From positions 1 through 64,000 of the forward strand of contig FZQV01000011.1 in NCBI GenBank assembly GCA_900199505.1: DNA of 64,000 bases, in the 5' to 3' direction. Position numbers and translations under genes: made by a program. The first letter of the stretch is position 1; the number at the start of each line of letters is the position of its first letter. This DNA is from Ruaniaceae bacterium KH17 (GTDB lineage Bacteria; Actinomycetota; Actinomycetes; Actinomycetales; Actinomycetaceae). The notes beneath the pieces were generated by a model that saw only the letters and a list, made by a program, of their open reading frames with translations, ran no database searches and was not told the DNA's origin. Positions 4,696 through 57,436 of the stretch are shown here, one piece after another.

Positions 4696-7014
4696 GTGGA
4701 CACCGAGTATCTTCATCCTTCGGGAGTGGTGATCACCCCGGAGTTCACCGCCGCGCTCGGGTTGCTCCACGCCGGCCACAACGTCTTCCTCACGGGCAAA
4801 GCGGGCACCGGCAAGTCCACGCTGATCAGGTTCTTTCAAAACGAGACCCGGCGCCGCATCATGACCGTGGCGCCCACGGGCATCGCCGCGCTCAACGTGG
4901 ACGGCTACACGATTCACCGGCTCTTCTCGTTCAGTCCTTCGATCACGCCCGACGACGTTCGCTTCGGCAGCTACCGACCGGGCCGTTTTGCGAAGGCGAT
5001 CACGGGCATCGACACGCTGATCGTGGATGAGGCTTCGATGGTCCGCGCGGACCTGTTCGACTCCATGGCGGCCGCGCTGGAGCGGTTCGGGCCACACCCC
5101 GGCCAACCGTTCGGGGGAGTGCAACTCGTGCTGGTGGGCGATCTGTACCAGCTCCCACCTGTGGTCACGGACGCCGAGTCTCGCTACTTCGAGACCACGT
5201 ACGCCTCGCCCTTCTTCTTCTCCGCAGATTCCTACAGCCCCGAGCAGTTCCCCACGATCGAACTCACGCGCGTGTTTCGCCAGATCGGCGACGACCGCCT
5301 CGTGGACCTCCTGAACGCCGTCCGCGAGGGCGCGCTCCTCGATCACGCACGCGCCGAACTCAACCAGCGCACGGACCGGTACTTCGAGCCGCCCACGGAC
5401 GAGTACTGGCTCACTCTTGCCACCACCAACCGCATCGTTACCTCGCGCAATCGGGAGCAACTCGAGCGCCTGCCGGATCCGCTGTTCCAGTTCCGCGCCA
5501 CGGTCCACGGCGAGACGGACGGCTTCGAGTACCCCACCGATACCGTGCTCCAGCTCAAGGTGGGCGCGCAGATCATGCTCCTCAACAACGACCCGGCGGA
5601 CCGCTGGGTGAACGGCAGCATCGGCCGGATCGAGTGGATTGACGTGGATGGCACGCACCCCGAGATCGGGGTCCGCCTACGCGAGGGCGGCCTCGTCACC
5701 GTGGCCCCGCATCTCTGGGAGATCACCCGCCCGGCCGTGCGCGGCGGCCGGCTCGAACACGATGTGATCGGCACGTTTACGCAATTGCCCATGAAGCTCG
5801 CCTGGGCGATCACCATCCACAAGAGTCAGGGGCAAACACTCGAGAACGTCGTGGTCGATCTGACCGGCGGCACCTTCGCGAACGGGCAGCTCTACGTGGC
5901 ACTCAGCCGCTGCACCAGCCTCGACGGCCTCGTGCTGCGCCGGGACGTGCTCCCTCGCGATCTCAAGACAGATATCCGGGTGCGGCGCTTCCTCGCCAGT
6001 CAATCTGATCCGAGCGGCTCGCTCGGGACCGTCAGCATCGCGATCCTCACCGTGGGCACGGAGGGCGACAAGTACCGCCCCCGGCCGGTGGAGATTGCCG
6101 TGGTCACGGACGACGGCGATGAGGCCGTCACGATCGTGAATCCCACCTGCGATCTCTACGGGGCCGAGCGCGAGTTTGGGATCACCACGCGCGATGTTCA
6201 GCTCGCGCCCGTGCTGACCGAGGCATGGGCGGCGCTCTCGCCACTCCTCGCGGGCAGGATCCCGGTGGGGGTCGATGTGGACCGCACGCTTGGCCTGATC
6301 GACTTCGAGCTGAAGCGGAACGCGTCCGTTGAGGCGATGCCTCTGGGCGCCGAGATCGGCTGCGGCTCACTCACGGCGGCGGAGCGTGCGCAGCTGCAGT
6401 CACCGAACGCCCTCGATCGTGCCCGCGCCATGCAGTCCGCTGCCCGCCGCCTCGGACTCGCGGACGTGGCCGCCGCACATGCCCAGGGCGGGGCAGCCTT
6501 CCCCACTCATCCGCGCGGCCGCGGCTATCTCCAAGCGCGCCGGGACGTGCCTGCGGAGGAGCGGTTCGTCGTCGGCGGAAATCTCCATGCCGACGACGAC
6601 GCCGCACAAGTCCTCGCCGAGTGTCTCACCACAGCATGGGAGCGCGTGATCGATCGCGACGAGGCCGTGGTGGCGGAGCTGAACGGCCTCGCGCGGCACA
6701 TCGGGGTCGAGATCCTGCCCGAGGGATTCGAGCTCCCACCGGAAGCGGATGGCACCGATTTCCTCACCGCGGGCGCCCGCGTGTGCTTCACCGGGGACGT
6801 GCTCGATCCCGTGCACGGTTGGCTCTCCCGGGAGCAGATGTGGGCGATTGCGATGAGACGCGGCCTGGTGATCTCGATGAACATGACGAAGACGCGCACG
6901 GATGTGCTCGTGGTGGCGCAGCGCGGCACGCAATCGGGCAAGGCGAAGAAGGCCTACGAATGGGGCAAGCCGGTCGTCTCAGCCTCCGAGTTCCTCGACT
7001 GGGCGCTGGGCTAG
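4696..7014 (+). CDS. Pif1-like helicase with degenerate DnaQ-like segment and BRCT domain
   Basis: A 772-residue protein. Residues 34-42 are a Walker A motif (GKAGTGKST), followed by Walker B DEASM, the GDLYQLPPV motif and the helicase motif TIHKSQGQTLENV with LYVALSRC: this is the Pif1/RecD-like superfamily 1B core. The middle (about 440-560) looks like a DnaQ exonuclease fold (VEIAVV, GITTRDVQLAPV, then VDVDRTLGLIDFEL in place of the usual HNxxFD) but lacks the acidic DxE residues. The last 80 residues (GARVCFTGDVLD to FLDWAL) are a BRCT domain. GTG at 4696 is chosen because GGGAG lies 6 bases upstream. It follows the AlkZ-like gene in an apparent operon. A likely role is DNA repair or processing of structured DNA. 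Confidence 0.8.
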   Translation: MDTEYLHPSGVVITPEFTAALGLLHAGHNVFLTGKAGTGKSTLIRFFQNETRRRIMTVAPTGIAALNVDGYTIHRLFSFSPSITPDDVRFGSYRPGRFAKAITGIDTLIVDEASMVRADLFDSMAAALERFGPHPGQPFGGVQLVLVGDLYQLPPVVTDAESRYFETTYASPFFFSADSYSPEQFPTIELTRVFRQIGDDRLVDLLNAVREGALLDHARAELNQRTDRYFEPPTDEYWLTLATTNRIVTSRNREQLERLPDPLFQFRATVHGETDGFEYPTDTVLQLKVGAQIMLLNNDPADRWVNGSIGRIEWIDVDGTHPEIGVRLREGGLVTVAPHLWEITRPAVRGGRLEHDVIGTFTQLPMKLAWAITIHKSQGQTLENVVVDLTGGTFANGQLYVALSRCTSLDGLVLRRDVLPRDLKTDIRVRRFLASQSDPSGSLGTVSIAILTVGTEGDKYRPRPVEIAVVTDDGDEAVTIVNPTCDLYGAEREFGITTRDVQLAPVLTEAWAALSPLLAGRIPVGVDVDRTLGLIDFELKRNASVEAMPLGAEIGCGSLTAAERAQLQSPNALDRARAMQSAARRLGLADVAAAHAQGGAAFPTHPRGRGYLQARRDVPAEERFVVGGNLHADDDAAQVLAECLTTAWERVIDRDEAVVAELNGLARHIGVEILPEGFELPPEADGTDFLTAGARVCFTGDVLDPVHGWLSREQMWAIAMRRGLVISMNMTKTRTDVLVVAQRGTQSGKAKKAYEWGKPVVSASEFLDWALG

Positions 7015-43083: not shown

Positions 43084-45678
43084 TTACACCACCGTCAGGG
43101 CGAGGCCGGAGGTGGCCGGGTCGCCGTCGCCGAGGTCCACTCGGACCGTGGCGCCGTCGGCCACCTCGCCCGCGAGGATCATCCGCGCAAGCCGGTCACC
43201 GATCTCACGCTGCACGAGCCGGCGCAGCGGCCGCGCACCATACGCGGGGTCATATCCTTCGAACGCAAGCCACTGCCGGGCGCCGTCGGTCACGTCCAAC
43301 GAGATCTGACGATCCGCCAGGCGCGCCGCCATCGCGGCCACCTGCAACTCCACGATCTGCCCCAGGTCCTCAGTCGAGAGCGACTCGAACATGATCACAT
43401 CATCGAGCCGGTTCAGGAACTCGGGCTTGAACGCCTGCCGCACCACAGCCATCACCGCCTCCTGCTTCGCCTCATCGGAGAGCATCGGATCCACGAGGAA
43501 CTGCGAGCCGAGGTTCGAGGTGAGCACCAGGATCGTGTTGCGGAAGTCCACGGTGCGGCCCTGGCCATCGGTGAGTCGGCCGTCATCGAGCACCTGCAAG
43601 AGGATGTCGAAGACTTCGGGGTGCGCCTTCTCCACCTCGTCCAGCAGCACCACCGTGTACGGGCGGCGCCGAACGGCCTCGGTGAGCTGGCCGCCCTCCT
43701 CGTATCCCACGTATCCCGGGGGCGCGCCCACGAGCCGCGAGACGGAATGCTTCTCCGAGTACTCGGACATGTCGATGCGGACCATCGCGCGCTCATCGTC
43801 AAAGAGGAACTCCGCGAGTGCCTTCGCCAGCTCGGTCTTGCCAACGCCGGTGGGCCCCAGGAACATGAACGAACCTTGGGGGCGGTCCGGGTCGGAGACG
43901 CCCGCACGGGCGCGGCGCACAGCATCCGAGACGGAGCGCACGGCGGACTTCTGTCCGATCAAGCGCTTGCCGAGTTCGTCCTCCATCCGCAACAGCTTCT
44001 CGGTCTCGCCCTGGAGCAGCTTGCCAGTGGGGATCCCGGTCCAGGCGCTGACCACCTCGGCGATCTCGTCCGGGCCCACGCGGTCGGCGATCATCGGATC
44101 CTGATCGAGCACATCCTCGGCCTGCTCAGCCTCGGCGATCTCGCGCTCGATCGCGGGAATCTCGCCGTACTGGATGCGCCCGGCGGCGTCGAAATCGTAC
44201 TCGCGCTCGGCGCGCTGCATCGCAATTCGGGCCTCGTCAAGCTTCTTCTTCAGGTCACCCACGCGGTTGTGGCCGGCCTTCTCGGCCTCCCACCGCGCGT
44301 TCAGGGCGGCGAGCTCCTCGGACTTATCCGCGAGCTCGGCCTGGAGCTTGGCCAAGCGGTCCTTGGACTGCGCCTCATCCGACTCCTGGAGGTACGCCTT
44401 CTCCATCTCGAGCCGGTCCACCTGGCGGCGGAGCGTATCGATCTCAATCGGCGCGGAATCCAACTCCATGCGCAACCGGCTGGCCGCTTCGTCCATCAGG
44501 TCGATCGCCTTATCCGGCAACTGCCGAGCCGTGATGTAGCGGTTCGAGAGGGCCGCTGCTGCCACGAGGGCGCCGTCGGAAATGGCCACCCCATGATGCG
44601 CCTCGTACTTGGGGGCAATGCCGCGAAGGATTGCCACCGTGTCTTCGACGCTTGGCTCACCCACGAACACCTGTTGGAAGCGACGCTCCAGCGCCGGATC
44701 CTTCTCGATGTTCTCGCGGTACTCGTCCAACGTGGTGGCACCCACCATGCGCAGCTCGCCGCGGGCGAGCATGGGCTTGAGCATGTTGCCAGCATCCATG
44801 GAGCTATCGCCGCCGGCCCCCGCACCCACCACCGTGTGGAGCTCGTCGATAAAGGTGACCACCTCGCCATTCGAGTCGGTAATCTCCTGGAGCACAGCCT
44901 TCAGCCGTTCCTCGAACTCGCCGCGGTACTTCGCGCCAGCCACCATCGAGGGAAGATCGAGCGCGATCAGTCGCTTGTCTTTCAGCGACTCGGGGACATC
45001 TCCCGCCACGATTCGCTGGGCGAGGCCTTCGACCACGGCGGTCTTGCCCACGCCGGGCTCTCCGATCAGAACCGGGTTGTTCTTGGTGCGGCGCGAGAGC
45101 ACCTGGACCACACGCCGAATCTCGGCATCGCGGCCGATCACCGGATCGAGCTTGCCCTCACGCGCATCCGCGGTCATGTCGCGGCCATACTTCTCCAGCG
45201 CCTGGAACGTGCCCTCGGGGTCCGGGGAGGTGACGCGCTGCGAGCCGCGCACATTCGGCAGTGCGGCGGCGAGCTGGTCACGGCTCGCGCCGGCAGTGCG
45301 CAGGATGTCCCCCGCGCTCGAGGTTGAGGCGGCGAGGCCGAGCAGGAGGTGCTCGGTGGAGACGTAGTCGTCGCCGAGCGCGGAGGCTTCCTCCCCCGCC
45401 GACTGAATCACGGCGAGCGTCTGGCGGCTGGCCTGCGGTTGCGCGGTGGTTGCCCCACTTGCCCCCGGCAGGCGCGAGATTTCAGCGTTGGCCCGGGCAA
45501 CGACGTCGGCCGGATCCGCCCCCACAGCCTGCAGAAGCGCACTGGCCACGCCGCCATCTTGGGCCGCGAGCGCGGCGAGGAGGTGCACCGGCTCGAGCGA
45601 GGGGTTACCGCGCCTGGCGGCATTCTGCAGTGCGGCGGCCACCGCCTCCTGCGACTTGGTGGTGAGCTTGTCGGACAT
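43084..45678 (-). CDS. clpB: ATP-dependent disaggregase ClpB
   Basis: An 864-residue ClpB of normal length. The N-domain repeats come first (1-150), then AAA1 with Walker A GEPGVGKT and Walker [11 protein letters not shown], the coiled-coil middle domain (about 410-530; [24 protein letters not shown]), and AAA2 with [28 protein letters not shown] and a C-terminal NRLDDVIMF and [13 protein letters not shown]. With DnaK, DnaJ and GrpE it rescues aggregated proteins. GAAAGG precedes the ATG at 45678. A HAIR site upstream shows control by HspR. Confidence 0.97.
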
Positions 45679-45738
45679 GGGTGCCTTTCGTTGTCTGTGT
45701 GCGCGGCTATTCCACGCATTCAGTACAACGAACGGAGA

Positions 45739-45759
45739 GTTGAGTCTATTCCGCTCAAC
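45739..45759. promoter_or_regulatory. HAIR operator of clpB
   Basis: GTTGAGT-N7-GCTCAAC matches the HspR operator CTTGAGT-N7-ACTCAAG. It is 61 bases before the clpB start. Two further sites precede dnaK. Confidence 0.85.
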
Positions 45760-45773
45760 TTCTAGATCTTGGG

Positions 45774-46604
45774 CTAGAGCAGGCCTTCCTCCGCGAGCCA
45801 AGCTTCGAGCTGCGGCTGAAGCTTCTCGAGCAGCGCGGGACTCGCGCCCACTAACAATGCGTGCTGCGGTTGCTCGTTACCACGCGGCCCTCGGACGACG
45901 GCGCCCGCCTCCCGGGCAATCAACACACCAGCCATGTAGTCCCACGGGTTGAGGGTGCGGTCGTAATAGAAGTCGATGCGCCCCGAGGCGAGCATGACGA
46001 GGTCGATACAGGCAGCCCCGATCCGGCGCACATCGCGGGTGATGCCGAGCATCTTCGCGAGCACGCGCCCCTGCTTCTCGCGCAGTTCGGGATCGTAGGG
46101 GAAGCCGGTGCCGATCAGGGTGACCGGAAGTTCCGTGGTCCGGCTTGCGTGCATTGGAACGCCATCGCAGAACGCGCCGCGCCCCTCCGTCGCCGAGTAG
46201 ATGCGCCCCGTGAAAATGTCCACGACGACGCCAGCGAGTGCCCGCCAGTCGTCCCCAGTGGGATCTCCCTCGACCACCGCGATACTCACGCCGCAAGCTT
46301 CGATCCCGTAGAGATAGTTGACCGTGCCATCCACGGGGTCCACCACCCACGTGAGCCCAGATGTGCCCGGGGTGGGATCGAACTCCTCACCCAGGAAGCC
46401 GTCGTCGGGCCGGGCCTCGGCGAGGGCGCGGCGAATGAACTGCTCGGTTTCGCGATCACCCTCGGTGACGATGTCTGCGATCGAGGACTTCGTGGCCGCC
46501 ACCTCGATCCCGCCCTCGCGATAGCCGCGGGCGAGCTCGGCCGCCTTCACCCCAATCGAGATCGTCAGCTCGTACAGTTCACTGATCAACGCATCATTCG
46601 CCAT
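45774..46604 (-). CDS. Inositol monophosphatase-family protein
   Basis: A 276-residue Mg2+-dependent sugar/inositol phosphatase. GEE (FLGEEFD), [12 protein letters not shown] and [16 protein letters not shown] carry the metal ligands. Possible substrates are inositol 1-phosphate, histidinol phosphate or related compounds; sequence alone does not decide. GGAGGC directly precedes the ATG. The gene lies upstream of clpB on the same strand, with the clpB HAIR promoter in the 95-base gap between them. Confidence 0.9.
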
Positions 46605-46630
46605 GCCTCCAGCCTCTCACCTTCCCCTCA

Positions 46631-46702
46631 GAACTTGTGCTCTCGGTGCATGATCACGCGCAATGTAGGCGATCACAGTGTGCACCCTGAGAAAACAAGT
46701 CG
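46631..46702. repeat. R1 palindromic repeat, copy 4
   Basis: GAACTTGTGCTCTCGGTGCA and TGCACCCTGAGAAAACAAGT form imperfect arms around ATGATCACGCG..GCGATCACAG. It lies between the membrane-protein operon and the phosphatase gene. Confidence 0.72.
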
Positions 46703-46717
46703 GCGGAGAGGGTGTGG

Positions 46718-47719
46718 CTAGCCGGTGGCGGCGATGCGGCGGACCAGGCCAGTGGTGGCGCGGGCCGGTAGCGCGGCGAGCAGCACCCAGACGGCGATCG
46801 GCTGCTCCAGGTACACATTCGCGGCACCGAGGATGGCATAGATGGCGCGGCCGTCGATGTAGCTGAACGCGTAGACGCCCCAGATTGCCACCGAAATCGC
46901 GGCCACGATCAGCCCGAACCGCCAGCCCGCGATCGCAGGGAAGCGCCTCTCCAACGCGCCAATCTCGCTCCGCCCGGCCACCTGGAAGAAGACCATCCAG
47001 ACCACGTAGTGCATGAGTTGCAGGTACGTGAAGGACACGAGGAAGCGCACCGCCAGCTGTGGATCGGCGTGCGGCGGCGCGGCGCTGCCGAGGACGAATG
47101 CCGGGTCAATCAGCCCCGAGACGAACTCGGGAGCGGCGCTGTTGATGACGCCGTCGAACACCCCAGCGAGGATCAACGCGGGAATCCCACACGCCCAGAT
47201 CAGGTTCAGCACCGTGAACGCGAGGCCCGTGCCCGCGCGATGCCGCCGCGCCCAATCCCACAGGAACACCAGCGGAATCAGGTTGTGCGAATGGCTGAAC
47301 ACGTGCCAGTACCAGGGCACGTGCACGAACGATGAGAACGCAACGATCACCACAATCGCGAGCACCAGCCATCGTGCGCGGCCGCGCAAGCCGAGCCAGG
47401 CGGCGATCGCGATGATGGTCATGCTGCCGATCAGCTCCAGCCGCTGTCCGAGCGCCGGACTCCACGCCGAGGCCACGCGCACCACCATCATCGCGCCCAC
47501 AAACGCCGCAAGCAGCCAGCCGGTGGACTCCCCCACTGCGCCCACCACTCGCCCCGCGAGGTAACGCGTGGCGAGAAGCACATGGGCGGCGCCGAGAACC
47601 ATAATCCCCACGACGGAGATCGCATACGGCTGGGCGGACGCGGCCACCGAGAGCACGCCAGCGGCAACGAGGAGCGCCGAAGCGGGGAGGGCGATCGAGC
47701 GCCGGGCGCTTCCGCTCAC
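46718..47719 (-). CDS. Polytopic membrane protein of unknown function
   Basis: A 333-residue protein with about nine hydrophobic helices. Histidines lie in or near helices: GAAHVLLATRY (about 43-53), HVPWYWHVFSHSHNLIPLVFLWDW (about 133-156) and LQLMHYVVWMVFFQ. The spacing of histidines is somewhat like membrane di-iron or haem proteins, but I assign no function. Its GTG start overlaps the stop codon of a 41-residue single-pass protein (GTGA), the third of three such small genes, so the four are almost certainly translated together. Confidence 0.78.
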   Translation of the reverse strand: MSGSARRSIALPASALLVAAGVLSVAASAQPYAISVVGIMVLGAAHVLLATRYLAGRVVGAVGESTGWLLAAFVGAMMVVRVASAWSPALGQRLELIGSMTIIAIAAWLGLRGRARWLVLAIVVIVAFSSFVHVPWYWHVFSHSHNLIPLVFLWDWARRHRAGTGLAFTVLNLIWACGIPALILAGVFDGVINSAAPEFVSGLIDPAFVLGSAAPPHADPQLAVRFLVSFTYLQLMHYVVWMVFFQVAGRSEIGALERRFPAIAGWRFGLIVAAISVAIWGVYAFSYIDGRAIYAILGAANVYLEQPIAVWVLLAALPARATTGLVRRIAATG

Positions 47720-47841
47720 TTGCGCGTGCGGAAGTACAGCACCGCTCCGATCACGAGGACGAGCACCACCACCACGACGGCCACGATCAGCACCGGGGTC
47801 GATGCGGGTTCGGGATCGGCAAGTGCATCAAATGGCAACAC
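47716..47841 (-). CDS. Single-pass membrane small protein 3
   Basis: A 41-residue protein. The outer part is acidic and Pro-rich (LPFDALADPEPASTP), followed by one helix of Val/Leu/Ile (about 17-35) and a basic end, VLYFRTRK. GTG start; the ribosome site GTAGGAG lies at five bases and includes the stop codon TAG of the preceding small gene. Its own stop overlaps the start of the polytopic membrane protein gene (GTGA). Same build as the two preceding small proteins, suggesting duplication. No known family recognised. Confidence 0.75.
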   Translation of the reverse strand: MLPFDALADPEPASTPVLIVAVVVVVLVLVIGAVLYFRTRK

Positions 47842-47849
47842 AGCAACTC

Positions 47850-47972
47850 CTACTTTGGGCGCTTCCGAAGGTACACAATCACCGCAACGGTGAGCAGGAT
47901 GCTGGCCACGATCGCACCCACCCCAACTGCCGTGGTCGCTCCGTTCGGCGCCAGCATCAGATCACGGGGCAT
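47850..47972 (-). CDS. Single-pass membrane small protein 2
   Basis: A 40-residue protein: short polar N-terminus (MPRDLMLAPNGATT), one hydrophobic helix (about 15-33) and the basic end VYLRKRPK. The ATG shares one base with the stop of the preceding small gene (TGATG), and GGAAGAAG stands before it. Membrane orientation by the positive-inside rule is N-out, C-in. No family recognised. Confidence 0.75.
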   Translation of the reverse strand: MPRDLMLAPNGATTAVGVGAIVASILLTVAVIVYLRKRPK

Positions 47973-48097
47973 CACTTCTTCCGCCTGTTGAAGTAAACCG
48001 CAAGCCCAATTCCGAGTACCAGTGCCACCACGACGGCCGCAACCCCCACCACAATCTCCGTGGGGAACAACAGCGGAGGCACGTCCATCGGTTTCAT
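47972..48097 (-). CDS. Single-pass membrane small protein 1
   Basis: A 41-residue protein, first of three. The N-terminus MKPMDVPPLLFPTE is followed by one Val/Ala/Leu helix (about 16-34) and the basic end VYFNRRKK. ATG at 48097 has GAGG close upstream; a second ATG at 48088 is possible. Its stop overlaps the start of small protein 2. The three share length, N-out topology and a Y-[FL]-[NR]-basic tail. Confidence 0.74.
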   Translation of the reverse strand: MKPMDVPPLLFPTEIVVGVAAVVVALVLGIGLAVYFNRRKK

Positions 48098-48455
48098 GGC
48101 CTCAGACTACCGGACACGGCCCCGCCGGAGTCTCGCACGCATGATGTGGAGCGTCTGACCTTCTATTTCGCGGCATAGAGGGTCATTTGCTCCACAACGC
48201 ACTCGGATCACAGAAGCCGTTCGGCCGCGGCCGTCGTCCCCAGCCCTGCGACTGAACCCAACGATCGGGCGAGAATCACCACGAACTCACCGCACGCCGT
48301 CGTCCCCAACCTCTTGCCCGACGACATATACTCGGCGGAGTTGCTCACTCCGCTGAGCAATCAAGCCGAGTAAGCGCCCACCCGACTGCGACGGGGCTCC
48401 CTCTCGACGACCGATCCGTGCAGAGAAGACGCGCGGGCAGGGGGAGGATGGGTGC
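48098..48455. other. Gene-free region with long hairpins
   Basis: No gene supported. A hairpin with arms TGTGGAGC (48145-48152) and GCTCCACA (48189-48196) has a second inner stem GACC/GGTC. Another, ACTCGGC (48330-48336)/GCCGAGT (48365-48371), encloses TTGCTC/GAGCAA. Copies of GTCGTCCCCA near 48230 and 48299 are reverse versions of the AGGCTGGGGA motif. Promoters for the small-protein operon and for the gene at 48456 must lie here. Confidence 0.55.
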
Positions 48456-48815
48456 ATGGATCAGTGGCTGCCGGCATACGTACTCACGTGCGCCATCGAG
48501 ATCCCGATCGTGTTCGCTATGATCTCCGGCCTCGCCTGGCGCCTACGTAGCAACCACCCGCGACTCGAACTACTTGCCCTGGCTTGGGCGCTCCAACTCA
48601 CCCATCCCGTGCTCTGGCTCGTGAACCCATCCTTCCCGACGGCGGCCCTGCTCGCCGAGGCGGTCATCGTCCTTGTAGAGGGCGCCGGCATCTACGCCTG
48701 GGCAGTGGCGCGGACAGACGCACCGCGCGGGCGCGAGACCGCGACGATGGCGCTGGCCGTCGCGCTCTGCGCCAATGCCGCCTCCCTCCTCGCCGGCCTC
48801 CTCCTCAGCCTCTAG
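48456..48815 (+). CDS. Small membrane protein
   Basis: A 119-residue protein with four predicted helices (about 8-28, 39-55, 62-83 and 96-117). GGGGGAGGATGG lies upstream at suitable spacing, supporting the ATG. ELLALAWALQLTHPVLWLV is a distinctive middle segment. No family recognised. It is convergent with the 1122-residue gene to its right; a decayed R6 repeat (48822-48856) separates them. Confidence 0.68.
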   Translation: MDQWLPAYVLTCAIEIPIVFAMISGLAWRLRSNHPRLELLALAWALQLTHPVLWLVNPSFPTAALLAEAVIVLVEGAGIYAWAVARTDAPRGRETATMALAVALCANAASLLAGLLLSL

Positions 48816-48870
48816 CGCGCCTGTTTCGACTCGGGACCTCCGGTCCCTCACTCAATGACCTCTGTGGGGG

Positions 48871-51800
48871 CTAGCGGCGCCAGCGGATCTGGCGTCCCAG
48901 CGTGCCACTCAGCTCCGACGGCCGCGAGGTTCGCAACTGCTCAAGCTCCTTCACCAGCGTGTCGCGACGCTCGGCGAGGCCCAGCCTGCGCTGCGCATCC
49001 TCACCCTGCGGCCTCGAGAGGAAGTCTTCGACGGCGGCGAGTGACTTGCTCGCAAAGGCCACCTGACGCTCATGCTCACCCTCAAGGCGCTGTGCGTACC
49101 AATCGGAGTCGAGCACCGCGCGGCGCTCGAACTGCGCGCGGAACGCCGGGTCCTTCAGCGTGAGGCCGTCGGCGGTCGCACCGTTCGCCATGATCTCGAG
49201 CAGCGCGCGGATCGGCGGGCAGCCCAACTTGATCGTGCCGTCATCGATGTAGGACTGCGCCACACGGCGGTGTGTCTCGACGATCGTGGCCATCGACTCC
49301 GCGTAGGTCGCCGCATCCTGCAGTTCCGGCCGCAGCATCTCCTCGGTGAAGACGAGGTGCGGGTGCAGGAAGATGCGGCCGAAGTACTTCGACGCGAAAC
49401 GCTCCGTCATGCGGTAGCCGAGGCGCGACGCCTCCACAGTCTCACCATCCACCACGATGTCCGGCACCGCCTCCAGCGCACCTTCGGCGATCAGGTTGGC
49501 AGCCGAACGCTCCTCATCCCGCATCCGCGAGAACACTTCGGGGATCAGCATCGACACGTCGTGGTCCACCTTGTATTTCGGTCCCACGTACCCGGCACTC
49601 GAGAGCCAGCCGTCATACCCCGTCAGCGCGAACGAGAGGAAGGCCGCGTTCAGGTCCACGATTGAAGGCAGCGCGTTGAACGGCCCCTTCGTCATGGCGC
49701 CTTCCGAGCCCGCACCGGTGGTCGACGGCGACTTACCGGTCATCGAGGAGATGAACTCCATGAACAGCTCGGGAAGCTCCATGTAGTGGAGGGGAGCGTA
49801 CGAGGCCAACGGGGGAACGCCGTCGTCGGCCGGGTTGTTACGGCGGCCAGCGGCGATCACATCCACGGGCTGCTCGTACGCCTCGGTCATGGGGGTCCGA
49901 GAGTGCAGGCGCGAGGCCAGATCCGCGGCCGCCGTGGCAACGGGGTTGGCGAGGTCCGGACGCATCTGCAAGTAGCGCGGGTTCTTCGACGGCACCCCCT
50001 CCACGATGCGCGGATGCGCCGACGAGACCACGTACTCGGCCTCCCCCTCTCCGTCAGCCGCCTTCAGAAGGATCGAGCGCATCGGCTCGGTGTACTGGCT
50101 GAAACCGATCGCGTCCTCGACCAGCTCGCGGGCCATCTCGCGCGTGAGCGGCTCGTAGTTGGACAGGAACGTGCCCGGGGTGGCGATGTCCCGCTCGGCC
50201 TGCTTGTCATACCCACGGTGGATGGCGTCGTCGGGCCGCTGGAAGAGCAGCTGCTCGCAGTTCTTGACGTACTTGCGAGACAGGCCACCGTTCGCCCCAG
50301 GTGCCACAATGCTCGCGGTGATGTCATCCTCCGTCTGCACCTTGGCCGCCGGGTGGAAGTCATGGCGCAGCCCGAACGTACGCCATGAACCGTCCGGCTC
50401 GTAGCCCACGCGAAGCATCGAGACGCGCACCTTCGTGTTATCCACGCGTACCGAGGTGCCCTTACGACCGTTGACCATTCCGGTGGTGAAGTGGCTCAGC
50501 CAATCCTCGCCCCACTCGGGACGGTAGAAGCGCTTCACGATCAGGACCAGTTCCTTGATGTAGTCCGGAATCGTGGCGAGATACGCGTTGTGCTCTTCGG
50601 TGTAATCCGCGCTCGGCGTGAGCAGCTTGATGACCGAGCCGATCGAGCGCTGATCGGAAAGGATGGGGCGGCTGGTCTCGCTGATATTCGCGGGGTCCAC
50701 GAAGCGGTACTGGAAATCGTGCGCGAGGATCTCCGCCACGCGTTCCATGTCCTTGTCGAAATCGGGAGCATACGAGTCGCCATTGATCACCGCATCCGAG
50801 ATCGCCTTCGAGATCTCCGACTTTCCGCCACCGGAAACCGTGGCCGGCTTGTGGCAGGTGGTGGCCCGCGCGGACGTGCCGATCATGGTCCACTGTGAGG
50901 CATCGTTCTCCAGCTGCGTGAGTTCGACCTGGTATCCATCCGGCGCCACATACACGGTGTCCTTGCGCAGCGGGATGCTGTAGTCCTTCTCGCCGTCATT
51001 CCAGCTCACGGTGCTGGTGCGCGTCGAGTACGTGGCATCCGCGGGAACCAGGATGTTGCGCGGATTCTCGAGGTCGACGACGTAGCCATCAGCCCACTCG
51101 AAACGCTGCGGATCGCGCTCCACAATCTCGTCCAAGGTGTAGCTGGGGTCAAACTTCAGGTCCTGGTAGTGGGAGCCGAGGTTGTAGCGGGGGTAGACCC
51201 GGGCGCCACCGGCGTGCTCCTCCTCGACGAGGCCGAACAGGTTCGCCGAGTAGGAGATCTGCGCCTTCACTTCCTTCTTGCAGTAGCCGAAATAGTTGTC
51301 CGCGATCACGGTGGTGATCACGCCCGATTCGTCGCGGGCGCAGGCCTTGAAGGCGCTGCCGTTGTTGTAGAGCTCCTCCGGATCGCTCCAGCACTGGCCG
51401 TCGCGGCGCTGCCGCTCGGTGGCGTCGTCGTAATGCGGCAGGCCGAGCTCCTTCTTGGTGAGCTTGGTCAGGTGCGGTGCGAGCACCACGAGGCCGGTGT
51501 GCCCGGTCCACGCATCCGGCTCGAGCGAGGCGTCGTAATCCGGAAGGTACGGGTCGCCGCCGTTACCGAAGATGCCCTCAACGAAGTCCAGGTTCGCCAC
51601 GAGCGTGCCCGGAGCGAAGAAGCGTGTCTCCATGGTGCGCTGCTGACTGAACCCAGGAACCTCGGGCACCACAATCGGCCGCAGCAGAAGCGACACCCAA
51701 CAACCAACGGGATGGTCCGACTCGGAACTGTACGGCAGCGTCATCGCATCTTCAGGCTGCTGGAAGGCGTGCTCGAGCAACTTGCCAAAGACGGCCCTCG

Positions 51801-52239
51801 GGACCTCGATCTTGTCGTCCTGGACCGGCAGACCGCCGTCGGCGATGTGGAACACGCCCTTTGTGGTACGCCGGTCATTGGCCGGGTTGTGGAGTACGCC
51901 GTTCTGCAGGCGGTAGCTCGTCAGCAGGGGCGAGGCGAAGGTGTCTCCGTCCATTGGCAGGGAGAGCGTCCGCGCAAGGCCGGGCTGGTCCAGCACGAAG
52001 GTCTCACGCGGCAGTTGCGGGGCGGCACCGGTGCCTTCGAGATAGGAGTCGAGGAAGGCTTGGATGCGCCCGTCCACGGCGGGAAGGCGGTGCTTGAGCC
52101 GGCGGTCCAACTCGCGCTGGCGGGCGATGATCGGGTCCACAAGCTTGGTTTCGAGCTCGGACTTCGTGCCCTCCGGCGTGGGCAAGCCGAGGAGATCGAG
52201 GCGAAGGTTGACCGCAGCAATGTCGAGTGTGTTCCGCAT
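48871..52239 (-). CDS. Candidate PPi-dependent PEP carboxykinase (~1120 residues)
   Basis: A 1122-residue cytosolic protein without membrane helices. Its unusual length and the P-loop-like HKPATVSGGGKSEISKAI (about residues 480-497) match what I recall of the PPi-type PEP carboxykinase (carboxytransphosphorylase) of propionibacteria and Entamoeba, which makes oxaloacetate and PPi from PEP, CO2 and Pi. I cannot confirm this without an alignment. Other notable stretches are VGCWVSLLLRPIVVPEVPGFS and EADYVVSSAHPRIVEG-like EAEYVVSSAHPRIVEG. ATG at 52239 is used because TAGGCT lies six bases before it, a leaderless pattern seen repeatedly here; ATG at 52245 is possible. The family may otherwise be simply an uncharacterised actinobacterial protein. 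Confidence 0.55.
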   Translation of the reverse strand: MRNTLDIAAVNLRLDLLGLPTPEGTKSELETKLVDPIIARQRELDRRLKHRLPAVDGRIQAFLDSYLEGTGAAPQLPRETFVLDQPGLARTLSLPMDGDTFASPLLTSYRLQNGVLHNPANDRRTTKGVFHIADGGLPVQDDKIEVPRAVFGKLLEHAFQQPEDAMTLPYSSESDHPVGCWVSLLLRPIVVPEVPGFSQQRTMETRFFAPGTLVANLDFVEGIFGNGGDPYLPDYDASLEPDAWTGHTGLVVLAPHLTKLTKKELGLPHYDDATERQRRDGQCWSDPEELYNNGSAFKACARDESGVITTVIADNYFGYCKKEVKAQISYSANLFGLVEEEHAGGARVYPRYNLGSHYQDLKFDPSYTLDEIVERDPQRFEWADGYVVDLENPRNILVPADATYSTRTSTVSWNDGEKDYSIPLRKDTVYVAPDGYQVELTQLENDASQWTMIGTSARATTCHKPATVSGGGKSEISKAISDAVINGDSYAPDFDKDMERVAEILAHDFQYRFVDPANISETSRPILSDQRSIGSVIKLLTPSADYTEEHNAYLATIPDYIKELVLIVKRFYRPEWGEDWLSHFTTGMVNGRKGTSVRVDNTKVRVSMLRVGYEPDGSWRTFGLRHDFHPAAKVQTEDDITASIVAPGANGGLSRKYVKNCEQLLFQRPDDAIHRGYDKQAERDIATPGTFLSNYEPLTREMARELVEDAIGFSQYTEPMRSILLKAADGEGEAEYVVSSAHPRIVEGVPSKNPRYLQMRPDLANPVATAAADLASRLHSRTPMTEAYEQPVDVIAAGRRNNPADDGVPPLASYAPLHYMELPELFMEFISSMTGKSPSTTGAGSEGAMTKGPFNALPSIVDLNAAFLSFALTGYDGWLSSAGYVGPKYKVDHDVSMLIPEVFSRMRDEERSAANLIAEGALEAVPDIVVDGETVEASRLGYRMTERFASKYFGRIFLHPHLVFTEEMLRPELQDAATYAESMATIVETHRRVAQSYIDDGTIKLGCPPIRALLEIMANGATADGLTLKDPAFRAQFERRAVLDSDWYAQRLEGEHERQVAFASKSLAAVEDFLSRPQGEDAQRRLGLAERRDTLVKELEQLRTSRPSELSGTLGRQIRWRR

Positions 52240-52306
52240 ACTCATAGCCTAGGGCGTGATCCGCATCGACAGCTATGGCGTTCGGCCCATGCTCACCCCC
52301 TCACGC

Positions 52307-53716: not shown

Positions 53717-53862
53717 TCCCCAAGTGTTGCACTGCCGCAGGCTCGCGGCCACGGCCACGGCTGCGGGCCAATATTCGAGATAACACCGTGCGCTTTCCGG
53801 CAGGAGGGTGCACTATGGACGTAGCCGGCTTCTGCCGGGTCACCCGACGAAAGGAGGTTCAC

Positions 53863-54099
53863 GTGCCAGTAGATGATCTCGTGAACAAGGGTAAGGACGC
53901 GTTCGAGTCTGGTAAGGACCAGGTCGAAGACCTCGTTCAGAAGGGCAAGGATGCTCTTGCGGACGCCACGTCAGAAGAGGGTAGCGATGCCCTCCTCGAC
54001 AAGGCCGCAGGATTTGTCAACAAGGTGACCGGCGATAAGTTCGCCGACAAGGTCGCGGAAGTCCGCGACGCCGTCGACGAAAAGATCGGTGACGAGTAA
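53863..54099 (+). CDS. Small helical protein, MT0933/Rv0909 antitoxin-like
   Basis: A 78-residue, charged, helix-forming protein with an internal repeat (VNKGKDAFESGKDQVED and VQKGKDALADATSEE). The end, DKAAGFVNKVTGDKFADKVAEVRDAVDEKIGD, resembles the small MT0933 (Rv0909) family called putative antitoxins, but no toxin gene is adjacent. AAAGGAGG lies 5 bases before the GTG, a near-perfect ribosome site, and a 14-base terminator follows, so strong expression is likely. A stress-related structural role would fit equally well. Confidence 0.65.
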   Translation: MPVDDLVNKGKDAFESGKDQVEDLVQKGKDALADATSEEGSDALLDKAAGFVNKVTGDKFADKVAEVRDAVDEKIGDE

Positions 54100-56647: not shown

Positions 56648-57436
56648 CTACTTTTCTTCAGTGGGCGGCTGGTACGGGTCGATCCGCTCGCCGTACTGCG
56701 GGGGCTGAACCGTCTCGCCGTACTGCGGGGGCTGTACCGTCTCGCCGTATTGGGGAGCCTGGCCGTACTGCTGCGGCGGTTGCTGACCGTACGGGGACTG
56801 CGGCTGCTGGTACGGCTGCTGCCCGTAAGGCGCCTGACCATAGGGCCCGTAGGGCGCAGCGCCGTAAGGTGCCTGACCATACGGAGGCTGGCCCCCGTAA
56901 CCGCCGGTAAGTGCCTCGCGGCGCTTCTTGTTCACCTTGACCAGCCAGATGATTCCCACGATCACGCCGATGAGTCCGAGGAATCCCAGGACGAATCCGC
57001 CGATCATCCAGCCGGCGGCGCCACCAAGGTTGTCGGTGAGACCACTTATCATTGACGACGGCGCAATCATCAGCGACGCGTCCTGAACATTGCAATCGAT
57101 CGTGTACGAGCCGCCGGCGGTGCTCGAGAAGGTCGGGATGACCTCGTAAATGCTGCCAGTCGGCACGGCCGAACCCGAGTCGTCGATCACGCTACAGTCG
57201 TATCCGGCACCCTCCACGTCGCCGTCGGAGGGCATGATCATCCACTCATCAGCGGTCGTGAGAGTCACCGTGCCGCCGTTGCTCACCATCTGAGTGTTCT
57301 CGAACGAGGACGTATCCATGCCACCGAACGCGTTCAGCGCGCCGGCGAGCAGTCCGACAATCGGGGCAATGATCATAAGCAAGGCGCTGATCACAATGGT
57401 CGCAATGGGGCCGCCACGGCCCGGCTGGTTGTTCAT
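56648..57436 (-). CDS. Two-helix membrane protein with Tyr/Gln/Pro repeat tail
   Basis: A 262-residue protein. Helix 1 (about 10-33) and helix 2 (about 142-167) enclose an extracytoplasmic domain of about 105 residues with two cysteines (YDCSVID and IDCNV) that could form a disulfide. The cytoplasmic tail (about 178-262) is built of APYG-, QQPY- and QYGETVQPP-type repeats. Such tails are common in actinobacterial envelope proteins; function unknown. It follows hspR on the same strand but 162 bases and a decayed R6 repeat separate them. Confidence 0.72.
   Translation of the reverse strand: MNNQPGRGGPIATIVISALLMIIAPIVGLLAGALNAFGGMDTSSFENTQMVSNGGTVTLTTADEWMIMPSDGDVEGAGYDCSVIDDSGSAVPTGSIYEVIPTFSSTAGGSYTIDCNVQDASLMIAPSSMISGLTDNLGGAAGWMIGGFVLGFLGLIGVIVGIIWLVKVNKKRREALTGGYGGQPPYGQAPYGAAPYGPYGQAPYGQQPYQQPQSPYGQQPPQQYGQAPQYGETVQPPQYGETVQPPQYGERIDPYQPPTEEK

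Follow-up and report, generated by a model that had tools for sequence, protein, structure and literature searches.

Small predicted single-helix membrane proteins encoded with two polytopic membrane proteins in actinobacteria: an apparently undescribed three-part module and its three-peptide form in Ruaniaceae bacterium KH17

The DNA analysed here, referred to as the window, is a 64-kb stretch from Ruaniaceae bacterium KH17. Three small reading frames (peptides A, B, and C) and a gene for a large membrane protein lie on its minus strand, and a gene for a four-helix membrane protein is encoded divergently from them, as listed below.

46718..47719, minus strand: large membrane protein, 333 aa, GTG start, ~10 predicted helices
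47716..47841, minus strand: peptide C, 41 aa, GTG start; motif P-F-D-A-x-x-D-P, one helix, tail RTRK
47850..47972, minus strand: peptide B, 40 aa, ATG start; motif P-R-D-L-x-x-A-P, one helix, tail RKRPK
47972..48097, minus strand: peptide A, 41 aa, ATG start; motif P-M-D-V-P-P, one helix, tail NRRKK
48098..48455, no strand: region between the divergent genes, containing two dyads; possibly a shared control region
48456..48815, plus strand: four-helix membrane protein, 119 aa, divergent from the peptides and the large gene

A previous sequence-only reading had reported three minus-strand frames of 41, 40, and 41 codons followed by a frame of 333 codons, and these coordinates were confirmed. Re-reading of the window gave the same junctions and basic tails as well: the TGA of peptide A overlaps the ATG of peptide B (TGATG), the stop codon of peptide B lies inside the ribosome site of peptide C (AAG-TAG-GAG...GTG), the GTG of the large gene overlaps the TGA of peptide C (CGCAA-GTGA), and the full tails are YFNRRKK (A), YLRKRPK (B), and YFRTRK (C). 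The same single-helix architecture is indeed repeated three times. The unit as first drawn, the small frames with the 333-aa protein, was correct but incomplete, since the divergent gene at 48456-48815 (+) had been overlooked. The GC content of A, B, and C by codon position was about 0.66-0.76, 0.34-0.47, and 0.75-0.78, which is the local coding pattern and is shared by the large gene. Four distinct small single-helix frames with basic tails were found in the real window, three of them being peptides A, B, and C, against none in 60 dinucleotide shuffles of the 64 kb, a null that is weak because shuffling destroys codon structure.

The dyads of the intergenic region, at 48145-48196 and 48329-48372, are imperfect, with arms of 22 nt and 19 nt, respectively, and are possible operators. 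A 16-nt direct repeat was also observed in this region, at 48230 and 48296. No credible riboswitch or other RNA element was matched in window positions 45500-49500, where one match fell below its gathering score, and only tRNA was found at the 11 of 48 related loci searched for RNA elements.

When 213 genomes of the family were searched with the large protein, its own genome and one clear relative, Actinomyces timonensis (genome G139, locus L021; 33% identity, E 4.3e-40), were obtained, together with two weak partial stretches in G001 and G010. A two-sequence profile of the large protein yielded three further genomes in a 296-genome sample of the class, and a five-sequence profile over the genome contigs of 84,980 species gave 48 loci, all actinobacterial; this contig scan rests on two short patterns, so that members may be missed. 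The same kind of scan with the window large protein alone gave no match. Most of the related loci were examined over about 12.8 kb. They belong to Streptomyces, Kitasatospora, Terrabacter, Catellatospora, Virgisporangium, Mycobacterium, Nocardia, Micropruina, Tessaracoccus, Microlunatus, and one acidimicrobial MAG, among others. Profile searches of two phylum samples found no further true member, one other genome matching over 43 positions only (E 0.004); distant members may be missed because such genome-sample searches score few candidates per genome. Plasmids contained no match to the window or Streptomyces protein, and viral contigs contained no match. The module is rare and scattered among actinobacteria, and no neighbouring gene family beyond it was common at a fixed place across lineages. 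In the 296-genome class sample, the large (E 0.001) and four-helix (E 0.01) families matched the same four genomes; the two 296-genome samples were taken as the same set, as their listings agree.

Subsequently, small frames at the 48 related loci were judged by a rule comprising a start codon, an Asp-hydrophobic-Pro motif, one helix, and a basic tail. The rule was fixed after a first inspection and was applied alike to regions near to and far from the large gene; a degenerate second peptide could escape it. It gave 45 matches near the large gene on its strand, compared with none on the other strand of that region and a single match, containing more than one hydrophobic stretch, in the remaining sequence. 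Counted by locus, a peptide was found near the large gene at 43 of the 48 by the rule and at L035 by eye, that is, at 44 of 48. Conservation of the triplet and of its order, put forward as a check in the earlier reading, held in part: the peptide is kept, but the triplet is not, and the position is not fixed. The peptide gene lay upstream or downstream of the large gene, always within about 0.8 kb, and a quick tree indicated at least four switches of side. At L026 and L027 it was situated beyond the four-helix gene, hence co-transcription of the peptide and large genes is not universal.

The peptides are mostly of 40-60 residues (range 38 to about 112 aa) and have no recognisable mature domain before the helix. 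An N-terminal motif, [L/P]-x-D-hydrophobic..P, is followed by the single helix and a basic (or extended) tail; typical examples are MNEVLADVAPEP-helix-RRNRQ (L025) and MSLLADVAPDP-helix-SRRK (L028). The motif Asp was the sole invariant residue in an alignment of 24 peptides, which consisted of window peptide C and 23 sequences selected from the 44 relatives because they are compact. With the peptide profile, the module peptide was the best match in nine of ten whole genomes, the known peptide of G259 not being recovered; among seven more genomes, three of which bear a peptide, it ranked first in those of L040 and L016 and third in that of L062. In combination, the module peptide was the top match in 11 of the 13 peptide-bearing genomes tested, several of the genomes in this test having supplied profile sequences. 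Three of the four peptide-less genomes gave weak matches (best E 0.0036), and that of L017 gave none at E 0.01. The strongest non-module match in the ten genomes (E 4.2e-5, positions 8-40) occurred in the genome of L035, and the lesser matches elsewhere were weaker and mostly helix-only. Because the module peptide tops the genome-wide matches, it is regarded as a dedicated partner and not as a tail common to many proteins.

In Pfam, no family matched more than three of the 24 peptides, among the best 25 of 43 families, and the window peptides matched Pfam and NCBIfam models only below curated cut-offs or at chance level. A search of solved structures with the peptide profile returned 12 sequences (best E 0.15); those listed were animal membrane-span proteins and one alga-type glycoprotein, and they were set aside as helix-only similarity.

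The number of peptides per locus was then compared over 51 distinct loci, which comprise the window, G259, and G282 in addition to the 48 related loci (G139 and G523 are L021 and L061, respectively, and were counted once). One peptide was present in 44 loci, two in 2, three in 1, and none in 4. Three peptides occur in the window only and the side of the peptide gene varies; the fixed three-peptide stoichiometry proposed from the window was not supported. The two-peptide loci are those of Micropruina (L015) and Tessaracoccus (L027). In Micropruina, TGATG joins the first peptide to the second, and the second peptide terminates in CGCAAGTGAG, where a GTG shares the reading frame of the large gene. 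These junction letters are identical to those of the window (TGATG, CGCAAGTGAG), the start codon of the Micropruina large gene at this place being putative. The two Tessaracoccus peptides overlap at ATGATG. Their motifs are PVDVLPP and PRDVVYPP, and those of Micropruina are PVDVIPP and P-L-D-V; the motif of peptide A resembles PVDVLPP of L027 and PVDVIPP of L015, and that of peptide B resembles PRDVVYPP of Tessaracoccus.

A profile built on 42 peptides, all of single-copy loci, matched peptide C at E 5.6e-6 and peptide B at 0.17, and peptide A was unlisted at E 10. Peptide C was also the best match of the peptide alignment in its own genome (E 2.2e-8), the alignment including C itself. The 42-peptide HMM detected both Micropruina peptides (E about 8e-4) and clearly just one of the Tessaracoccus peptides (E 1.9e-4). 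Used alone, the peptide HMM is unspecific in the window, where a hydrophobic frame (stretches at 56882-57010 and 57350-57427) reached 22.7 bits over its entire length, no less than C with 22.1 bits. These comparisons suggest that peptide C is probably the orthologue of the single peptide of the relatives. As a profile match is absent for A and weak for B, the case for these two depends on motif, architecture, and coupling, and their common descent with C is considered likely.

Selection on the peptide was estimated as pooled, uncorrected pN/pS in nine groups covering 31 of the 44 peptide loci. The values in eight groups were 0.45, 0.42, 0.60, 0.36, 0.38, 0.12, 0.32, and 0.29, and that of the ninth group, L051/L061 with long tails, was 1.02. 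The selection check that the sequence-only reading had put forward for the peptide alignments thus indicated purifying selection in eight of nine groups (0.12-0.60).

The four-helix family consists of divergently encoded proteins of ~112 residues. By profile, its gene was found at 41 of the 48 related loci, always directly upstream of the large gene on the other strand, and in two pieces at two of these loci. The seed of the profile was composed of 26 copies obtained by a motif search and the window copy, so that 26 of the 41 matches are seeds. The window four-helix protein was 44% identical to the product of the divergent gene in Actinomyces timonensis. T11, E15, P51, E68, E75, N107, S110, and G114 were invariant in 40 four-helix proteins, and N46 (Leu in the window), T49, and H50 were near-invariant. 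The structural model had a mean pLDDT of 86.8. Full Pfam and NCBIfam scans of the four-helix proteins gave no credible family, the profile matched no solved structure by sequence at E 1, and Foldseek with the model gave none at E 0.001 (best E 0.89). At the Catellatospora locus (L026:5872-5880), the four-helix and large genes appear to start back to back, with a spacer of three bases between their start codons (CAT-CGG-ATG); any promoters there would therefore lie inside each other's genes.

The large family consists of proteins of ~330 residues with about ten predicted membrane helices. In an alignment of 49 large proteins, H46, R52, Y53, R57, R81, E95, H145, W156, W175, H237, W241, Y303, and E305 were invariant. 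AlphaFold2 with these 49 sequences gave a model of mean pLDDT 88.9, in which the predicted helices fit ~10 spans, the sixth being broken at residues 146-147. According to the model and the alignment, H46, H145, H237, and residue 301 are located on helices 2, 6, 8, and 10, respectively; residue 301 is His in 46 of the 49 and Asn in the window. The window protein deviates at the near-invariant positions E50A, D286S, Y300A, and H301N, and its site may consequently be altered. It stands on a very long branch (3.45), at the sole three-peptide locus. Terrabacter-group large proteins (L016, L017, L023, L024, L029, L045, L047, L059, and L062) end in A-V-A-P-[D/E], recalling the peptide motif; these AAVAP-type ends were rejected as fused peptide motifs, being present both with and without a peptide gene.

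No credible match to the large protein was obtained in Pfam, NCBIfam, PADLOC, or PHROGs, all 49 large proteins being scanned with Pfam and NCBIfam; the few scattered matches fell short of curated cut-offs or, for models without one, were at chance level. Solved structures searched by sequence with the large-protein profile gave none at E 1; with the model, Foldseek gave none at E 0.001 (best E 0.43), and VIA-align reached a best Z of 5.6 over 48 residues. CtaA, MBOAT, and rhomboid proteins were absent among the PDB matches listed for the model, all of which were weak. Homology between the large and four-helix proteins was not seen either (profile-profile probability 0.6%).

We next consider the loci from which parts of the module are missing. 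A peptide was absent at L017, L045, L047, and L053. Retention of the large protein with loss of the small frames, which the sequence-only reading had named as evidence against itself, hence occurs at 4 of 48 loci, but the other 44 keep the peptide. The four-helix gene was missing at L017 and L055, both of which begin at a contig end, and at L040, L045, L047, L051, and L053. In a whole-genome search of these seven genomes, the only clear trace was a contig-end fragment in that of L017; the L047 genome matched weakly, over positions 16-52 of 110 only (E 0.006). Thus L045, L047, and L053 lack both the peptide and the four-helix gene. In their large proteins, N146 is changed to H (L045), H (L047), or L (L053), and residue 301 has become T (L045) or A (L047). 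Judging from a quick tree, these joint losses are probably two events, so the association rests on few events. L040 encodes the peptide and the large protein, with no four-helix gene in the genome at E 0.01, and the same pair without a four-helix gene was found at L055. L017 has no intact peptide and retains the four-helix fragment; a motif-like start and a tail-like stretch without a helix lie in the expected place (E 0.003, with weak statistics) and are a possible peptide remnant. Peptide and four-helix losses therefore tend to go together, with L017, L040, and L055 as exceptions; L055 and L017 slightly weaken the case for joint loss and leave intact the linkage that underlies the assignment of the peptides as subunits. 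At L051 (Streptomyces tardus, 5937-6867), only a short four-helix remnant was observed and the large gene goes out of frame just after E305. The L051 module is seemingly decaying, a sequencing error at the frame break being also possible, and its peptide, compared in one pair, gave no indication of purifying selection.

The three-part module is conserved, with selection on the peptide in relatives, recurrence of the junctions in Micropruina, and partial joint loss. Based on these results, we consider that the peptides are probably (at about 0.6) dedicated accessory subunits of one complex with the ten-helix and four-helix proteins. The small frames would encode single-span subunits of this predicted complex, and we infer both their translation and their physical association with the polytopic pair. 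By the positive-inside rule, the peptides would be oriented N-out/C-in, so that the conserved Asp/Pro motif would face outside, where it may dock on the large protein. In the window lineage, one peptide gene probably multiplied into three coupled copies, and the three peptides may share a role once filled by one; the module mostly has one peptide, and the window triplet elaborates on it in this lineage.

The placement of conserved histidines on helices 2, 6, 8, and 10 hints at a metal or redox site, at which these residues may come together; metal or redox chemistry in the complex is a tentative proposal. A bolder extension, which we regard as improbable, is that the module is a new three-part class of membrane enzyme. 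The His cluster of the ten-helix protein would lie mid-membrane, the four-helix protein would supply acids and a histidine, and the invariant Asp of the N-out microprotein would extend to the site from the outer side, serving as ligand or relay, much as the Tyr of DltX does from the C-terminus, one microprotein having become three. If this were true, the window lineage would show a single small subunit on its way to becoming several specialised ones.

The sequence-only reading had known of no described system of the same make-up, and none was found in the open literature searched or through the family models; the three-part module appears to be undescribed. In linkage to and co-occurrence with polytopic partners, the general pattern of accessory small subunits, the peptides conform to such subunits apart from L017, L040, and L055. 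The nearest precedent in anatomy is CydX. CydX, CydY, and CydZ are described as small single-helix proteins encoded with the polytopic cytochrome bd, lineage-dependent and often unannotated (PMC4325964). CydX is likewise a single-helix small protein encoded beside a polytopic complex, but it has a conserved Trp at the helix start, in contrast to the Asp/Pro before the helix of the module peptides. The CydX family did not match the window peptides in Pfam or NCBIfam at E 5 and was absent among the best 25 of 43 Pfam families for the 24 peptides; CydA, CydB, or cytochrome bd had no match among the 49 large proteins at E 1. In logic, DltX is the closest precedent; it is described as a membrane microprotein that acts through an extracellular terminal motif in the teichoic acid D-alanylation complex with a polytopic enzyme (PMC12148441). 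DltX, like the predicted module peptides, is a microprotein with a conserved extracellular motif beside a polytopic protein; the DltX motif is FXYXXF at the extracellular C-terminus, whereas that of the module is N-terminal and without Tyr. The FXYXXF C-terminal motif was absent from the window peptides, which end NRRKK, RKRPK, and RTRK, and from their relatives, with basic or extended tails. No MBOAT (DltB-type) partner was matched among the 49 large proteins at E 1.

KdpF is a one-helix accessory subunit of the potassium ATPase transport complex, similar to the role proposed for the module peptides. It did not match the window peptides in Pfam or NCBIfam, and no Kdp family, KdpA included, matched the large protein. 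By analogy, we read the peptides as resembling CydX, KdpF, and DltX in logic without being members of these families. As for the large protein, heme A synthase (CtaA) has a bis-histidine core in which four His on even helices bind heme. The His of the large protein fall on helices 2, 6, 8, and 10; CtaA was absent among the PDB matches listed, all weak, and Pfam gave no COX15-CtaA match among the 49 large proteins at E 1. Brp/Blh proteins (BCD, PF15461) are membrane dioxygenases and, like the large protein, polytopic bacterial membrane proteins with conserved histidines; this candidate was rejected by an hhalign probability of 3%, no PF15461 match among the 49 at E 1, and the absence of the G-x-PHGAxD and HFG motifs.

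The main rival explanation is that the peptides are substrates, with the polytopic pair processing, modifying, or releasing their short extracytoplasmic N-terminal segment, so that a peptide would be secreted or displayed on the surface, and the extra copies being diversified substrates. Sorting systems (LPXTG, PEP-CTERM, and GlyGly-CTERM) combine a motif, a helix, and a basic tail with a polytopic partner, and the module peptides share this order and such a partner, with sub-threshold matches to LPXTG, PEP-CTERM, and PEF-CTERM models. A substrate role is also consistent with copies that number one to three and diverge, with the motif Asp as the only invariant residue, and with potentially catalytic polar residues in both partners. 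Unlike sorting tails, however, the module peptides stand alone (38 to about 112 aa) in one dedicated copy, not many; no recognisable mature domain precedes the helix, and most genomes tested have one clear copy, with nothing of similar strength matched over the full length at other places. The large protein matched no protease or sortase model. A C-terminal sorting signal was rejected for the same lack of a mature protein, for the top rank of the module peptide in 11 of 13 genomes, and for matches that were sub-threshold only. We therefore regard the peptides as unlikely substrates.

It is also quite unlikely that the ten-helix and four-helix proteins form a transporter whose regulation or assembly is the task of the peptides, these taking no part in catalysis and buried Glu, His, and Arg serving ion or solute transport. 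KdpF and AcrZ provide models for such regulation or assembly, and the conserved helix acids of the four-helix protein (E15, E68, and E75), the conserved Arg and Glu of the large protein, and the patchy, accessory distribution are compatible with it. However, no credible transporter family matched, and no gene family, for example of an ATPase or a binding protein, was linked across lineages. That the small frames are chance or untranslated is very improbable: profile support is weak or absent for two of them and their translation is predicted from sequence, but such a frame occurs at 44 of 48 related loci, with 45 matches near the gene against one elsewhere, purifying selection, and a coding GC pattern, which upholds the original claim that the small frames are real genes tied to the large protein.

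Two membrane-protein families and a ~45-residue peptide family, none of them identified through Pfam or structures, form one tightly linked actinobacterial unit. The module offers a concrete, testable target for studying the function of single-helix microproteins within membrane complexes, and its series of one, two, and three copies offers a natural comparison for one small subunit becoming several. In the window, the module is adjoined by a 1124-residue frame at 48871-52245 (-), without a Pfam match at E 0.001, and a 103-residue protein at 53788-54099 (+) matches MT0933_antitox (PF14013) at E 1.7e-10.
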